From a virus: a DNA stretch of 39,290 nucleotides. Every line of letters starts with the position of its first letter. Within the stretch, counting starts at the first letter, position 1. The stretch is from positions 1 to 39,290 of IMG/VR virus record IMGVR_UViG_3300042562_000542; one strand, written 5' to 3'. The notes beneath the pieces were generated by a model, which was given only the letters and a program-made list of their open reading frames with translations, had not been told where the DNA came from and did not search any database. Both the position numbers and the translations under genes were made by a program. Shown in pieces: positions 4,181-39,290 of the stretch.

Positions 4181-5320
4181 CTAGACGGTGAAGTTACCAT
4201 ACAACAGACCGGCAGGGCGATCAACGCCCAAACCAAGTCTTTCTTCAGCCCTAATTGTAACGAGGTTGTTGGTAAAATCAGCATTGATGTAGCCCATTTC
4301 AACGGTAGCGCCTTGGCGGTTGTACAGCACGCAAGATGCATCGATTGCGCCAACCAAGAATTTGCCCGAAGCCATGTTGTTAGACAAGACCACACGCAAA
4401 CCGAAAGGATTAGTACCAGCATCCATCCCTGGCATACCGTAGAGATACTCACCTTTACCGCCGGTGTATGTCTCGCGTGTACGCTCCATTGCGCCCCAAT
4501 TGGCAGGGTTAACGATAACTGTGTCAGGCATATTGCCGGTTGCCCACAATGCATATTTAGCGCGGTTAATCGCATCAACAAGCAAATCGCTAGTCGATGG
4601 AGTGTATGCGGTAAAGTTGCCGCTGTCGGTCAAGCCTGACAGGTTAGGTGATGTACCGTTACCGTTAAGCAATTGGGCATCAACACGTTGAGCCAACCCA
4701 TCGCGCAAACGTGTGTCAATGTAAGCCATGATCGCAGGCGCATCAGCCAAAAGCTGATTCGATACTTTGATCCAATGTGCCACGGTAGTGATCGGCACAT
4801 TGTATTGCTCAAAAGTCACATCCGATTCAGCTTTGGCAGAACCTTGGCTTGCCTCAGCAGCATCGTTTGTCCATGAGGCTTCACGCAGGCTATTAACCAT
4901 GTTTGAAGTAACAGGGATTGCGCGGAAAAGCTCGCGGATTGTCAAAGGAGCAAAGTTGCCACGAATAATCGCAGGCTGATTCTGTGCAAACACAGTAGTC
5001 GAACCGGAGGTTACAGTGTTCTTTACTTCAATGCGAGCACGTTGTGTCTGACCAGCCATCAATTGCTTGAATTGCTCAGACTTCACAAACTCAGCCCCCG
5101 CCGACAACATAGGCGCAGATTCTTTTTTAGCCGAATCCATTTTCTGAGAAATTTCGGTAATGGTTGATTCAAACTTTTCGCTTAGTGCGCGAAGTTCGCC
5201 CTTTACCAATTCATCGGCTTTGCCCAAGTCAGAGACCTGTGCATCATATTTTGACATTGCGTGCTCGATAGCTTTACCGTGAGCGTCAAGTGCTGCTTTG
5301 ATTTCGATTTCAGTAGACAT
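4181..5320 (-). CDS. Major capsid protein, HK97 fold
   Basis: This 379-residue protein has the HK97 gp5-like layout. The first ~95 residues form a charged, helical delta-like domain (for example 'LRALSEKFESTITEISQKMD'), which acts as internal scaffold. Then comes the mature part with 'TVTSGSTTVFAQNQPAII' (about 104-121), the N-arm region 'TIRELFRAIPVTSN' and the E-loop/P-domain. The C-terminal part has 'NPFGLRVVLSNNM' and 'RAEERLGLGVDRP'. Cleavage of the delta domain by the protease encoded just upstream is expected from the family; the exact site is not evident. The ATG at 5320 is preceded by AAGGA at good spacing. Confidence 0.95.
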   Translation of the reverse strand: MSTEIEIKAALDAHGKAIEHAMSKYDAQVSDLGKADELVKGELRALSEKFESTITEISQKMDSAKKESAPMLSAGAEFVKSEQFKQLMAGQTQRARIEVKNTVTSGSTTVFAQNQPAIIRGNFAPLTIRELFRAIPVTSNMVNSLREASWTNDAAEASQGSAKAESDVTFEQYNVPITTVAHWIKVSNQLLADAPAIMAYIDTRLRDGLAQRVDAQLLNGNGTSPNLSGLTDSGNFTAYTPSTSDLLVDAINRAKYALWATGNMPDTVIVNPANWGAMERTRETYTGGKGEYLYGMPGMDAGTNPFGLRVVLSNNMASGKFLVGAIDASCVLYNRQGATVEMGYINADFTNNLVTIRAEERLGLGVDRPAGLLYGNFTV

Positions 5321-9290: not shown

Positions 9291-9977
9291 TTAAAAAAAT
9301 TTTAATTGTCCAAAAGATTTACTACTTTTCTTTTGATTGCATAATCTACAACAACAAGCAACATTATTAAAAGTATGTGTTCCACTTTCTGCAAGTGTAA
9401 TAATATGATCTAACTCTGGCGCATTGTCATCATAAGTTCCACGTTTACTTTTTGGTGTCTTGCAATTACATATATGACATCGCCATTTATCTCTAGCAAA
9501 TATAACAAAAGGATCAATGTTGTCTGCTTTTAATCCTATTTCAATTGATCTTCTTTTTGCTTTTGATATTCTTCTCCATTTTTTTAACGTTTGATTACGT
9601 TTTATTTCTCTACAATCATTGCAATAAATTGGTCTTCCACCTTTTTTTTCAATATATATAAATTTATTATGACAATGATTACATAATTTTATATTTTTAG
9701 TTCCAATGTTATTGCTATATTTCTTTTTATTTTTCTTTTTTATTCTTATTAATGAAGCAATCTCAATAAGAACATTATAAGAATAATTTACATAAACATT
9801 TTCTTTTATTTTTTTTAACAATCTTATTTCTTTATTTACAAGTAAATAATATTTTTCCCATTTTGCTTTATTCTTAAAAAAACATTCTCTTGAACAATAT
9901 TTCAACCTATCTGCTTTTTTAGGCTTAAAAAGTATTTCACACCCTTTGCATTTACATATACAATTCTTTGTAGCCAT
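9291..9977 (-). CDS. A+T-rich HNH endonuclease with extra zinc-ribbon segments (probable mobile/homing gene)
   Basis: This 228-residue protein carries a C-terminal HNH domain: Cys pair in 'RDKWRCHICNCK' (about 163-174), 'ELDHIITLAESG' with the Asp-His of the active site (about 188-199), an Asn in 'FNNVACCCRLCN', and a second Cys pair. The N-terminal half has two further Cys-rich zinc-knuckle pairs ('KCKGCEILF' with 'YCSREC', and 'LCNHCHNK' with 'YCNDC'). Codons are extremely A+T rich and Lys/Asn heavy, unlike every neighbour, a sign of recent transfer. It separates terS from the usual packaging HNH gene. I start at the ATG with AGGG upstream; a GTG three codons earlier is possible. Confidence 0.85.
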   Translation of the reverse strand: MATKNCICKCKGCEILFKPKKADRLKYCSRECFFKNKAKWEKYYLLVNKEIRLLKKIKENVYVNYSYNVLIEIASLIRIKKKNKKKYSNNIGTKNIKLCNHCHNKFIYIEKKGGRPIYCNDCREIKRNQTLKKWRRISKAKRRSIEIGLKADNIDPFVIFARDKWRCHICNCKTPKSKRGTYDDNAPELDHIITLAESGTHTFNNVACCCRLCNQKKSSKSFGQLKFF

Positions 9978-10003
9978 GCTTATCACCCTAAGTATTGGTC
10001 AGA

Positions 10004-11413: not shown

Positions 11414-13429
11414 TTAGGAATTCTTAACCATCAAATACAGGGCTGCTTTCATATCGCCATCTATGACCACATAACCCGCACCCTTTTGCTCGATCATTGA
11501 CTCATCTACTAACTTTTTCTTGGCTTCAGAGATGGCGGTACGCCTTGCACTGTCCGATGGCCAAGTGCTTTCCTTGGTAAATTCGTTCCACGCATCAGCC
11601 GTTAAATACAGATCATTATCATTATCTTTTCTGCCATATTTTAATAATGCATCTTCAAATAATTTACGCAATCGAGTTAATGATTTGGTTTCTTTTCTTG
11701 GCAAAAGATAATCGCCATCTGATTCAATTACTACACAAGTGGATGCCGTATCACCCCATTTTGTGACACCCATTTCAATCACTTGAAGATCAAAATTTAT
11801 AATCTTATTCTTACTAGATAATTCTCTTTGCTTAGTAACTTCCATCGTGCGTATGCCGTTGTTCTCGACCACCTCAATCTCAGTATCAATGTGTGCGCGT
11901 ATGCCTGACCACCCACGAGCCCCCTTGGCGTGATCCTTACCCATGTGATGAATGGTGAGAATGTGAGCGCCGGTAGCCTTACCAATGCGTTCGATCCGGT
12001 TCAGAATTGGTGCCATATCCTGCCCGCTATTCTCGTTCGCCCCCGCAGAGATGCGTGAGAAAGTATCCAAAATGATAAGTGCAGGGTTTTTGCCAGTTTT
12101 TGCTACCATTGCTCGCGCCACATCAATAACTAGGTTTGCATCGCTTTCGCCATCAAAGAAGTTCATCGGTGATTGAATAATCGCCATGTTATTGATGACT
12201 TTGGAGTGATGCTTGCGGTAGGCTTGCACGCGAGTACGGATCGAGGCAGGCGCTTCTGCCGCCACATAAAGCACACTGCCTTGCTCAGTTCTCATGCCAA
12301 GCCACGGTTCACCGAGTGCAATCGCGCACGCCAAACCCACGCCTAGAAAGGTTTTGCCTGAGTTGCTGTCACCATACAAAAAGCTCGATGATCCTTTGGT
12401 GATAAGCCCTTGCACTAGTTCATCGGGCATGTAGTAATCATTGCCGATCTCATCAACAAAGATGGCATCAGCCATTGCAAAGGCTGTCATGTCTTGCGCG
12501 GGTGGTTCTAGCAATGCCGCTAGATCACCGCCTGCCTGCACATAATCGTTTGCATCGCCTATCATGGGTGGCATTATCATGGTGCAATGTGCTGCCTCGC
12601 AGGCTTTGAGTGCCTCGCGCTCTCCTGTGCCTGATTCGTCGTTATCGGCAACGATCACGATGTCGCGCTGATCGCCGGAAACGTGCCGCACATACTTAGC
12701 CGTTGCTGTCATATTTTGTGCTGAAAACGACACAATTACGCATTTGCCTGTGACCTCATGGATAGTGCTCGCAGTTGCCGCCCCCTCCGCAATATAGACC
12801 ACATCGCCTGAGTGCAAAAGATCGCCACCCAAAAGCCACAAGCCGCCCGCCGTTTTGCCACCCTTTAAAAACAACTTACCGCCCTGCGCATCGATGTACT
12901 GCAAGCTAGTAATCTCGCCATCAATCATCACCGGTGCAATTAGCCTGCCATCGCTTGCAATGCGAAAGCCGTGATTCTTGATGCCTTTTTTAACCAAATA
13001 GGGGTGATCGTCGCTGGCCATCGCAGCGCTTGACCAAATGCTTGCTGCACTCTCTGCAGCCAATGCCCTAGACTGCGCAAGCTCACGGTCTCGTATGCGT
13101 TTAAGCTCACTTACCTGATTCATGTGCTCGATGTTTTCGACCGTGGTGAGTGTGCGCCCAATGTCAGCACGCCATGTCTGGCTCATATTGCTGCGCCAAC
13201 AGCCAAATCCCGCAGCAGGCACAACGCCACCAAAAGCTACATACCACCCACTAGTGTCGCGTGCTTTTCCGTTGGTGCTAAACCTGTGCAGGCTGCCATC
13301 CATGATGATGCTGTCCGGTGGCGTTAACCCCGCATCCGTGATGGCTTGATAAAGTTGTGTCTCAGGTGGTGCAAGCACTTCATTCTTGAGGGTAAAAACG
13401 CCCCCGAGTGCTTTTGTTAAATCTGCCAT
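11414..13429 (-). CDS. Primase-helicase: TOPRIM domain plus RepA/AAA_25-type ATPase
   Basis: About 671 residues. The first ~110 residues are a primase-associated region with 'SGWYVAFGG' and 'GCWRSNMSQTW'. A TOPRIM domain follows: 'VVYIAEGAATAST' with the catalytic Glu (about 210-222) and 'DIVIVADNDESG' (about 256-267). The hexameric helicase-type ATPase has Walker A 'GDSNSGKT' (about 353-360) and Walker B 'ALIILDTFSRISAGANENSG', then 'HILTIHHMGKD'. The C-terminal ~80 residues look like a winged-helix region. It likely primes and unwinds DNA, recruiting host polymerase, as no phage polymerase is present. ATG at 13429 has GAGG upstream; a TTG at 13453 would add eight residues. Confidence 0.85.
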   Translation of the reverse strand: MADLTKALGGVFTLKNEVLAPPETQLYQAITDAGLTPPDSIIMDGSLHRFSTNGKARDTSGWYVAFGGVVPAAGFGCWRSNMSQTWRADIGRTLTTVENIEHMNQVSELKRIRDRELAQSRALAAESAASIWSSAAMASDDHPYLVKKGIKNHGFRIASDGRLIAPVMIDGEITSLQYIDAQGGKLFLKGGKTAGGLWLLGGDLLHSGDVVYIAEGAATASTIHEVTGKCVIVSFSAQNMTATAKYVRHVSGDQRDIVIVADNDESGTGEREALKACEAAHCTMIMPPMIGDANDYVQAGGDLAALLEPPAQDMTAFAMADAIFVDEIGNDYYMPDELVQGLITKGSSSFLYGDSNSGKTFLGVGLACAIALGEPWLGMRTEQGSVLYVAAEAPASIRTRVQAYRKHHSKVINNMAIIQSPMNFFDGESDANLVIDVARAMVAKTGKNPALIILDTFSRISAGANENSGQDMAPILNRIERIGKATGAHILTIHHMGKDHAKGARGWSGIRAHIDTEIEVVENNGIRTMEVTKQRELSSKNKIINFDLQVIEMGVTKWGDTASTCVVIESDGDYLLPRKETKSLTRLRKLFEDALLKYGRKDNDNDLYLTADAWNEFTKESTWPSDSARRTAISEAKKKLVDESMIEQKGAGYVVIDGDMKAALYLMVKNS

Positions 13430-13526
13430 ATTGCCCTCGTATGTGATCCTCAAAAAAAGACTATTGGCAGGGCTTGAGGGAAAGCCTTTTCAAGAGCGAC
13501 TCTAGCCAAAGTCAAAACATATTACC

Positions 13527-13706
13527 TCAAGCTGTGTGCTTTTCTAGTAAAAAATCGCTCAAGGTTTTAACAACTTCGTATTTAATTGCCGTGTTCCCCT
13601 TGCGCACTGATCGCCACAGAATAGAGTATGGCAAGCCTGTTTGCCCTGCGACAGCGCGTAAGTTGTAGAGCTGTAATTTATTTCGGATTTCCTCAATTGT
13701 TAACAT
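13527..13706 (-). CDS. Small Cro-like helix-turn-helix regulator
   Basis: This 59-residue frame starts MLTIEEIRNKLQLYNLRAVA. The next stretch, 'AVAGQTGLPYSILWRSVRKG', fits a helix-turn-helix (Ala-x-x-x-Gly turn, Ser/Arg-rich recognition helix), then 'EVVKTLSDFLLEK' closes the fold, as in lambda Cro-type repressors. AAGGTG stands five bases before the ATG. It lies directly downstream of a leftward promoter that overlaps the early rightward promoter, so it probably controls the switch between the two arms. About 100 bases separate it from the primase-helicase gene it precedes. Confidence 0.75.
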   Translation of the reverse strand: MLTIEEIRNKLQLYNLRAVAGQTGLPYSILWRSVRKGNTAIKYEVVKTLSDFLLEKHTA

Positions 13707-13732
13707 TTTCGCACCTTATGTAAAAAAACTTG

Positions 13733-13759
13733 TTGACAGCGCGAATTGTATGCTAATAT
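13733..13759 (+). promoter_or_regulatory. Rightward early promoter
   Basis: A perfect -35 box TTGACA (13733-13738) is followed after 15 bases by TAATAT (13754-13759), with an upstream TGC forming an extended -10. Transcription would start near 13766, about 45 bases before the Sak4-like gene. Confidence 0.6.
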
Positions 13760-13762
13760 TCG
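13742..13762. promoter_or_regulatory. Pseudo-palindromic operator candidate over both promoters
   Basis: CGAAT and ATTCG flank an 11-base centre with further matched TA pairs. The site covers the -10 regions of both divergent promoters. It is the natural binding place for the Cro-like protein encoded at 13527-13706. Confidence 0.45.
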
Positions 13763-13773
13763 TTCACTCGCAA
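13745..13773 (-). promoter_or_regulatory. Leftward promoter for the Cro-like/primase arm
   Basis: On the minus strand TTGCGA (13773-13768) and TACAAT (13750-13745) are 17 bases apart, a near-consensus sigma70 promoter. It overlaps the rightward promoter, so the two cannot both be occupied at once. Confidence 0.6.
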
Positions 13774-13800
13774 CCGGAATTAGCCGACAGTGAGATTTTT

Positions 13801-13814
13801 AGGAGGCCATAATG
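13801..13814 (+). promoter_or_regulatory. Strong ribosome binding site of the Sak4-like gene
   Basis: AGGAGG (13801-13806) lies five bases before the ATG at 13812. It is a full match to the 16S anti-Shine-Dalgarno sequence and the strongest site seen in the window, fitting high early expression. Confidence 0.8.
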
Positions 13815-14483
13815 GCTATCAATCTACGCAGTACAAAAGGGCTACACGCCAATGGTGTCAAGCTCTTGGTGTACGGCAATGCAGGATCGGGAAAGACTAG
13901 CCTGATCCCCACTTTGCCAACACCGATTGTGTTATCAGCCGAGGGTGGTTTGCTCTCGATTGCCGATGCTGATGTGCCGTTTATCGAAGTCAACAGCTAC
14001 GACACCCTTATGGAGGCGTACCGTTGGATTACGGAATCAGACGAATCTAAACACTTTGAGAGCATCGCGCTTGACTCGATTAGTGAGATTGCTGAGGTTG
14101 TGCTGAATTACGAAAAGAAGATCGCCAAAGACCCAAGGCAAGCTTATGGTGCAATGCAGGAACAAATGACCGATTTAATTCGTGCGTTTCGTGACATTCC
14201 AAACAAGCACGTTTACTTTACAGCCAAGTGCGAGAAAGCAACCGATGAAGCAGGGCGATTGTTGTATGCGCCGAGCATGCCAGGGAACAAGACGGGGCAG
14301 CAGTTGCCCTATTTCTTTGACGAAGTGCTTGCGCTCAGAGTTGAGAAAGATGCAGATGGCAATCCACAGCGTGCCTTGATGTGTGACAGTGATGGGATTT
14401 GGTTAGCCAAAGACCGATCCGGCAAGCTGGATGGTTGGGAAGCGCCTGACCTTGGTGCAATTATTGCAAAGATAGGGTGTTGA
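13812..14483 (+). CDS. Sak4-like RecA-fold ATPase (single-strand annealing recombinase family)
   Basis: This 223-residue protein has Walker A 'VYGNAGSGKTSL' (about residues 20-31) near the N-terminus and 'ESIALDSISEIAEVV' (about 82-96) as Walker B region. 'HVYFTAKCEKATDEAGR' and the family motif 'APSMPGNKTGQQLPYFFDEV' follow. These match phage Sak4-like NTPases (AAA_24 group), small RecA-like proteins that promote annealing and recombination. First gene of the early arm, followed within about 1.2 kb by a DUF669 ssDNA-binding protein, its normal partner. Confidence 0.85.
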   Translation: MAINLRSTKGLHANGVKLLVYGNAGSGKTSLIPTLPTPIVLSAEGGLLSIADADVPFIEVNSYDTLMEAYRWITESDESKHFESIALDSISEIAEVVLNYEKKIAKDPRQAYGAMQEQMTDLIRAFRDIPNKHVYFTAKCEKATDEAGRLLYAPSMPGNKTGQQLPYFFDEVLALRVEKDADGNPQRALMCDSDGIWLAKDRSGKLDGWEAPDLGAIIAKIGC

Positions 14484-15724: not shown

Positions 15725-15951
15725 AAAAATACGCTGAGTTGTGCAAGGCACAACAGCTTTCTATTGATAATTATGCGCGTGTTGTTAACGCGCTCAAAGA
15801 CGATTTCGACAAACTGCAAGGCGCTGTGCTTGCAGAGCGTGAGGCTTGTGCCGTATTGGTAGAGGGTGGTAATCATGTGCATCCGAAAGCGCCGGATGCT
15901 GTTTGGGCAAAAACAATAGCAAAGTTAATCCGCGCAAGGGGCAACGCATGA
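15712..15951 (+). CDS. Hypothetical helical protein, 79 residues
   Basis: It begins MDELKKYAELCKAQQLSIDN and continues with helical 'YARVVNALKDDFDKLQGAVL'. 'AEREACAVLVEGGNH' is a motif seen in many small phage proteins ('REACA...'), followed by a C-terminal helix 'KTIAKLIRARGNA'. I chose the ATG at 15712, since the part upstream is the end of the small membrane protein in another frame. The role is unknown. Its stop overlaps the start of the winged-helix gene as ATGA. Confidence 0.65.
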   Translation: MDELKKYAELCKAQQLSIDNYARVVNALKDDFDKLQGAVLAEREACAVLVEGGNHVHPKAPDAVWAKTIAKLIRARGNA

Positions 15952-16205
15952 CTACCGCCAACAAGATACTAGCCTTTTGCACGACTCCGCGCACGGCATC
16001 CGAGATTGCCACGCATTGCAAAGTACAGCGTAGCTCGATCTATAGCGCTTTAGGGCGCATGCAAATGAAAGGCATTGTGGTACGCATCGGTGATGGCAAA
16101 GAGCGTGCTACCTATGTGTTAAACGATCCGACCCTAGTAAATATGGATGAGTATGAAAACTTAGTGATTAAACACGCACATAACCCTTTTGGATTAAGAG
16201 CATGA
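15948..16205 (+). CDS. Winged-helix DNA-binding protein
   Basis: This 85-residue protein has 'FCTTPRTASEIATHCKVQRSSIYSALGRM' (in two halves, about residues 10-38), a helix-turn-helix of the MarR/ArsR type. A wing, 'KGIVVRIGDGKERATYVLN', follows. It likely binds DNA as a small regulator of the early arm, though a structural or replication role cannot be excluded. Its start and stop both overlap neighbours by four bases (ATGA). Confidence 0.7.
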   Translation: MTTANKILAFCTTPRTASEIATHCKVQRSSIYSALGRMQMKGIVVRIGDGKERATYVLNDPTLVNMDEYENLVIKHAHNPFGLRA

Positions 16206-39039: not shown

Positions 39040-39290
39040 TTAACGTGATTGAATTATATCCGCTTCAAAACTGATGCGATAAAGCCGTGTATCAGTTTCG
39101 CGTAAATCTTGAATCATTCGATTGGCGTATCCTGCCGAATCTATTGCAGTCCTGACAGCATAAGCAAGTGTTTCAACGCCTGCATCTGTTTCATGCCACA
39201 CATCAATCTGTATTGTATCAACATCGCTGCATGGCGTACCACTAATTTGAATCTCAGGGATACCTGAAATAACAAACCATGTTATATAAG
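39040..39290 (-). CDS. Tail completion/terminator protein, DUF3168-like (3' part; start is at base 233)
   Basis: This is the C-terminal part of the gene that starts at 233. Its frame covers 'AYAVRTAIDSAGYANRMIQD' and 'LRETDTRLYRISFEADIIQS', with the TAA at 39042-39040. Bases 39164-39290 duplicate 1-127 and should be counted once. The stop is 13 bases before the tail tube ATG. Confidence 0.75.
   Translation of the reverse strand, partial: YITWFVISGIPEIQISGTPCSDVDTIQIDVWHETDAGVETLAYAVRTAIDSAGYANRMIQDLRETDTRLYRISFEADIIQSR
39164..39290. repeat. Terminal direct repeat, copy 2
   Basis: Identical to bases 1-127; it marks the assembly overlap of the circular map, not a biological repeat. Confidence 0.95.

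Follow-up and report, generated by a model that had tools for sequence, protein, structure and literature searches.

Overlapping divergent promoters, exchangeable Cro-like regulators and a conserved hairpin at the predicted 5′ end of an early transcript in phages with no recognisable integrase

How do a regulator and its operator stay matched when unrelated Cro families occupy the same position beside an unchanged promoter? The question is raised by a short control segment in IMG/VR virus record IMGVR_UViG_3300042562_000542 and by its counterparts in related phages. The window analysed here is the whole record of 39,290 nucleotides. Its first 127 bases (1–127) recur exactly, in the same orientation, as its last 127 (39164–39290), and a 118-aa tail-terminator-like ORF runs across the joined ends. 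We conclude that the genome is complete and circularly assembled, with a length of 39,163 bp. It encodes a terminase, a portal, an HK97-type head, a tail tape measure and an endolysin, together with a primase-helicase, Sak4, a DUF669 SSB-like protein, a Cas4-type exonuclease, a helicase, RusA and a DNA methyltransferase. The rightward early arm also carries a TrmB-like winged-helix protein (15903–16205, plus strand; PF01978 above cut-off), possibly a second regulator, and an HNH/endonuclease VII-like gene (9291–9986, minus strand), possibly a homing-type insertion, adjoins the terminase genes.

An earlier reading of this DNA from its letters, hereafter the sequence-only reading, had both arms of the whole genome departing from the control segment. 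This holds for the early arms but not for the late genes, which form a separate block, again on the minus strand, with genes from 22458 leftwards and on to 39036. The features of the segment and its flanking genes are as follows (basis in brackets).

11414–13429, minus strand: TOPRIM/AAA_25 primase-helicase, second gene of the leftward arm (profile matches)
13527–13706, minus strand: gene of 59 codons for a 59-aa Cro-like helix-turn-helix (HTH) protein (phrog_18104, predicted fold, pN/pS)
13714–13717, minus strand: AAGG, ribosome-binding site for the HTH gene, with 7 nt between it and the ATG (sequence)
13733–13738, plus strand: predicted rightward -35 box, TTGACA (conserved in relatives)
13742–13762, no strand: pseudo-palindrome CGAAT-N11-ATTCG, candidate operator (sequence)
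13745–13750, minus strand: predicted leftward -10 box, TACAAT, spacer 17 (promoter scoring)
13754–13759, plus strand: predicted rightward -10 box, TAATAT, TG-extended, spacer 15 (weight-matrix scoring, relatives)
13766, plus strand: predicted rightward transcript start, an A, 7th base after the -10 box (6-nt gap as in relatives)
13767–13794, plus strand: hairpin CTCGC-AAC-CGG-AATTAG-CCG-ACA-GTGAG, predicted to be 5′-terminal in the RNA (models R1/R2, register, covariation in relatives)
13768–13773, minus strand: predicted leftward -35 box, TTGCGA (promoter scoring)
13801–13806, plus strand: AGGAGG, ribosome-binding site of sak4 (sequence)
13812–14483, plus strand: sak4-like AAA_24 ATPase, first gene of the rightward early arm (phrog_124, E 2e-54; PF13479)

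Translation of the primase-helicase probably starts at ATG 13429 (MADLTK..., relatives beginning MADL), not at TTG 13453, to which the open frame reaches.

The HTH gene, flagged in the sequence-only reading as easy to miss, proved real. Its product matches PHROG 18104, a transcriptional regulator (E 3.4e-12, residues 1–57 against profile positions 1–56 of 57), relatives carry a counterpart in the same position, and a pN/pS of 0.127, pooled over relatives with the same type of regulator (type A, below), indicates purifying selection. An AlphaFold (AF2) model, a check which that reading had proposed, gave a four-helix HTH (pLDDT 85) closest to phage and self-repressor folds: Aca11 (Z 8.6), the N-terminal domain of AcrIIA15 (Z 8.2), SinR and other phage/XRE repressors, with weak Foldseek E-values, as is usual with a domain of this size. 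A further fold hit, PDB 8rc5, contains a phage Sak4 bound to the SaPI2 Stl repressor, which demonstrates that binding between a Sak4 and an HTH repressor is possible. TALE repeats, which the HTH alignment hit among PDB profiles, were set aside as repeat similarity.

Relatives were retrieved chiefly with sak4 as the query, which returned 80 IMG/VR loci and the isolates 1N2-2, CGphi29, PB15 and XX1924; the HTH protein as sole query retrieved few. No matches came from searching IMG/VR with the primase, the named phages with the HTH protein, or by megablast with the DNA, the four isolates included. In all four isolates sak4 diverges from a gene annotated as a transcriptional regulator followed by a TOPRIM primase, and the same HTH/primase-versus-sak4 synteny occurs in a Manatee Spring genome and in most of the IMG/VR loci. 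In three distant loci from Stenotrophomonas, Sphingomonas and Klebsiella phages (L248, L249 and L253) we observed a primase/small gene facing a sak4 arm, with no hairpin. More distant Sak4 phages likewise often keep the primase/small-gene versus sak4-arm layout, and none of PaMx42, Bhz54, Kimi, RHEph05, JenK1, Kmi2C and Mcat31 gave a hit to the hairpin model.

Two promoter-like sites lie where they had been placed before, overlapping and each reading outward. All promoter positions, those of the relatives included, are weight-matrix calls and thus predicted, sigma70-like sites. The score of the rightward site was reached in 0/60 dinucleotide shuffles of the intergenic stretch, that of the leftward site in about 2%; as shuffles rarely reach these scores and the pair recurs in relatives, we take it to be more than chance. 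In about 45 of 52 distinct intergenic sequences of relatives the -35 boxes are 34–35 bp apart (5′ end to 5′ end), a geometry in which each -35 box falls between the -10 box and the start of the opposing promoter. The genome studied here is an outlier, with -35 boxes 41 bp apart and a rightward spacer of 15 bp with an extended -10 box. Its predicted rightward start, A13766, coincides with the value proposed in the sequence-only reading.

The strongest feature of the segment, a hairpin at 13767–13794, had gone unmentioned. We found it in about 100 members of a comparison set of more than 100 relatives. Nearly every aligned relative has the same form, an outer stem of 5–7 pairs, a 3x3 internal loop (4x4 in 1N2-2 and CGphi29), a 3-pair inner stem and a loop of 4–6, giving a single stem-loop of 28–32 nt. 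In a first, ungapped MAFFT alignment, whose input sequences were cut out by a structure parse, compensatory changes were seen in all six outer pairs; 46 cells were doubly changed where shuffles gave 12, and slid registers of this alignment carried no covariation signal. Among 41 distinct copies aligned to the model, where the six outer pairs again all had compensatory changes, there were 124 doubly changed cells against 37 in shuffles, in an alignment that is fitted to the structure and hence favours covariation. The letters A9, C11, G13, A14, C19 and A22, in the internal loop and the inner stem/loop, are invariant or nearly so. A CsrA-type ANGGA site was rejected because hairpins with CTG or CAG as inner stem lack it.

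The hairpin keeps a fixed place after the predicted -10 box. Counted from the -10 box to the A before the stem, the gap measures 6 nt in 39 of 43 distinct loci and 7 nt in the remaining 4. Two sets of hairpin-only patterns found 113 and 19 matching stretches, in part at loci already in the set, and among the distinct pattern-found loci examined 87/89 have the same 6–7 nt gap. This constancy suggests that the A is the natural +1 of these predicted promoters and that the hairpin is 5′-terminal in the RNA. In the genome studied here the hairpin is the top place of the whole 39-kb genome for both models, R1 and R2, with filters off, at low scores (12.8 bits, E 0.57; 11.9 bits, E 1.3) that mark it as a divergent member. 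The lineage form, with a 3x3 loop and a 3-bp inner stem, one base after +1 and 6–7 nt after the -10 box, is nevertheless what stands at 13767–13794, and a structure of this kind would arise at precisely this register with a chance of 0.0004. No Rfam 15 family matches this genome at gathering score, the five relatives searched gave only unrelated sub-threshold hits elsewhere, and we found no report of the hairpin in the open-access literature.

The hairpin goes with the promoter. The model's hits, in general a single one per genome, share their strand with the early gene that follows; complete or long records carry one copy, rarely two, and no copy was found on the leftward arm of the records searched with the model. 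The first gene after the hairpin is sak4 in most loci and different small genes in others. Six loci (L067, L068, L074, L075, L077 and L081) have two promoter-plus-hairpin units roughly 285 bp from each other; where examined, the two stand before different genes, as in L077, whose units at 5228 and 5516 each precede a different small gene. We conclude from the other downstream genes and the tandem units that the hairpin belongs to the promoter rather than to sak4, which dismisses a sak4-specific leader; a left/right pair of nut or put type was likewise dismissed, as the left arm holds no copy.

On the other side of the promoters it is the regulator that changes. The HTH gene was directly recognised in 61 loci, 35 of type A, the kind found in the genome studied here, and 26 of type B. 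Type A corresponds to HTH_26/HTH_3 (Cro/C1-type, PF13443/PF01381), type B to P22_Cro (PF14549, best E 2e-17); the protein of XX1924 falls in YdaS. The 59-aa protein itself has no Pfam hit, the P22_Cro profile included, and its close relatives in the same slot exceed the HTH_3/HTH_26 cut-off. With at least three HTH families in the same position, the slot is a Cro slot; together with the four-helix model, this supports the Cro-like label given to the protein from its sequence. Three independent pairs of loci (L006/L007, L029/L014 and L038/L035) have identical promoter cores and near-identical hairpins with a type A regulator in one member and type B in the other, from which we conclude that the regulator was replaced while the promoter core stayed unchanged. 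Around the control segment, then, genes are exchanged on both sides: the left side holds one of three Cro-like kinds, the right side sak4 or one of a variety of small genes.

Such swaps would be odd if each HTH protein read a site within the promoter core, and they argue against the simple model in which the 59-aa protein reads the palindrome. Both kinds of protein may recognise one and the same DNA, the operator may lie beyond the core, or the swaps may be recent; our data accommodate all three. The pseudo-palindrome that the sequence-only reading had offered as operator is present at 13742–13762, its centre (13752) exactly midway between the two -10 boxes, which is suggestive only. It is neither in excess of chance, since the 105-bp intergenic stretch should hold about 1.7 dyads with 5-bp arms (for the 41-bp core, P = 0.31), nor conserved, being absent from the aligned relatives, and we rejected it as a conserved operator. 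A family-wide dyad at the centre of the promoter pair was also rejected, since the symmetry was mostly confined to the -35 hexamers. Between the -35 boxes of 31 de-replicated cores, with shifted centres, own-half complementarity was 0.555 against 0.501 ± 0.018 with the halves of other cores (6/2000 permutations). This excess lends modest support to putative dyad operators in some clades, such as TAGCA-N7-TGCTA or TACC-N9-GGTA.

We consider that the segment is probably a compact early control device, combining overlapping promoters, shut-off by a Cro-like protein and a 5′ hairpin on the rightward RNA, in phages without a recognisable integrase. The two sigma70 promoters would overlap almost fully and read outward, so that one RNA polymerase could be accommodated at a time. 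Leftward transcription would yield the small Cro-like HTH protein and then the primase-helicase; rightward transcription would yield the recombination/replication genes, in this genome sak4 first. The Cro-like protein would most likely accumulate and repress both promoters at or near their -10 boxes, bringing about early shut-off and self-limitation. The rightward transcript would start with one unpaired A followed by the conserved hairpin, acting on the transcript itself, most simply by shielding the 5′ end from decay, or else through a contact with RNA polymerase or a protein that sustains output from the early arm.

What the hairpin does can be read in several ways. Our leading, still tentative suggestion, to which we give somewhat less than an even chance, is that it protects the mRNA, the single unpaired 5′ base blocking pyrophosphate removal and 5′-dependent decay and so giving a long-lived early message. 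This agrees with the exact +2 placement after each promoter and with stem letters that vary while pairing is kept, and the 5′-terminal stem-loops that stabilise ompA and papA mRNA are precedents (PMC3997798). Bacillus subtilis RppH needs at least two unpaired 5′ nucleotides (PMC3997798), so that with only one, protection from RppH-type enzymes is a simple reading. Protection alone, however, has no need of the conserved letters in the internal loop and inner stem/loop, and stability is therefore unlikely to be the whole story.

Unpaired positions conserved in sequence, within a structure whose outer stem varies freely, would suit recognition by an RNA-binding protein of phage or host that controls translation or transcription of the early arm, a possible though rather doubtful reading. 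The HTH protein is unlikely to be the sequence-specific partner, and the hairpin was rejected as its specific site, because the same hairpin stands beside unrelated HTH families.

A put-like role is an alternative that we set beside protection, though we rate it as unlikely: folded at the 5′ end of the early transcript, the nascent RNA would remain attached to RNA polymerase and, unaided by any phage protein, reduce its pausing or termination in the right arm. In HK022, putL is found immediately after PL, has A3 as its first paired base and acts from the nascent RNA (PMC9378689), and the present hairpin resembles it in beginning at +2 and in keeping unpaired A/C positions in its 3x3 internal loop. 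A put element, however, is about 70 nt with two stem-loops, where this one is 28–32 nt with one, and HK022 has put on both early arms, where here the left arm has none.

We think it quite improbable that the inverted repeat acts as DNA, as an operator or replication signal. Its position between the primase and sak4 genes and the few G-U pairs of the model-based alignment (2/369 cells) would fit such a role, but G-U pairs reach 8% in a broader set of 60 distinct hairpins, the conserved unpaired bases are not dyad-symmetric, the repeat recurs at tandem promoters, and model hits share the orientation of the early gene after them and keep a constant distance to its -10 box.

The sequence-only reading had seen no integrase and had left open a Cro-only timing switch or a remnant of lysogeny control. 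PF00589 and PF00239 are indeed absent from the genome, an informative absence as the genome is complete, and profile searches that detected their positive controls found no tyrosine or serine recombinase (integrase, resolvase) in it or in 19 related records, isolates included. No CI-like repressor occurs among its annotated proteins, some small ORFs having no assignment; the gene opposite the Cro-like gene is sak4. That a lysogeny switch kept its Cro side and lost CI and integrase is thus very improbable: Cro-family proteins and divergent overlapping promoters do recall immunity regions, but the 20 genomes hold no integrase or resolvase, no CI-like gene was seen, the HTH gene is under purifying selection, and a similar primase and small gene versus sak4-arm layout extends to distant phages. 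The Cro-only timing switch is plausible, being consistent with the evidence, and is the reading we prefer.

More speculatively, and again with somewhat less than an even chance, the hairpin may represent an uncatalogued class of small structured RNA that is 5′-terminal in early phage transcripts, located at +2 of particular promoters, a cis-acting, portable "start tag" that modifies RNA polymerase or mimics a 5′-end cap; promoter pair and tag would then be the constant unit, with regulators and cargo genes changing places around it. What looked like an ordinary Cro-like switch becomes a testable module of many uncultured phages without a recognisable integrase, made of a fixed double promoter, a hairpin at the exact predicted 5′ end of an early transcript and exchangeable regulators. 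Absent from Rfam and small enough for a reporter, the hairpin could reveal how these phages protect or propel their first transcripts.

Several known systems share parts of this arrangement. Aca proteins are autorepressors, and they and the N-terminal domain of AcrIIA15 are, like the 59-aa protein, small single-domain HTH folds, at a sequence identity of 10–12%; no anti-CRISPR gene was recognised here. Salicola phage CGphi29, Idiomarinaceae phage 1N2-2 and the Alteromonas phages PB15 and XX1924 share the sak4 versus HTH and TOPRIM primase arrangement and have a like-shaped hairpin after the rightward promoter, too divergent for the covariance model, with a different HTH family in CGphi29 (type B, P22_Cro-like sequence) and XX1924 (YdaS). 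HK022 putL, too, is a folded part of nascent RNA with which an early phage transcript opens (PMC9378689), but put is twice as long, with two stem-loops and copies on both arms, and so differs from the single 28-nt stem-loop of the right arm described here. The stabilising stem-loops of ompA and papA also place a stem at the extreme 5′ end of an mRNA (PMC3997798); the phage hairpin differs in its conserved internal-loop and inner-stem letters, its phage lineage and its fixed +2 position. In the early control of lambda and P22 at PL/PR a small Cro-fold protein is also made from an early transcript beside divergent early promoters, and members of P22_Cro (PF14549) fill the orthologous slot in relatives. 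In contrast to lambda and P22, the present phages have no CI, no integrase and no three-operator array that we could find, their promoters overlap within 34–35 bp (41 in this genome), and a hairpin stands at the predicted 5′ end of the rightward transcript.
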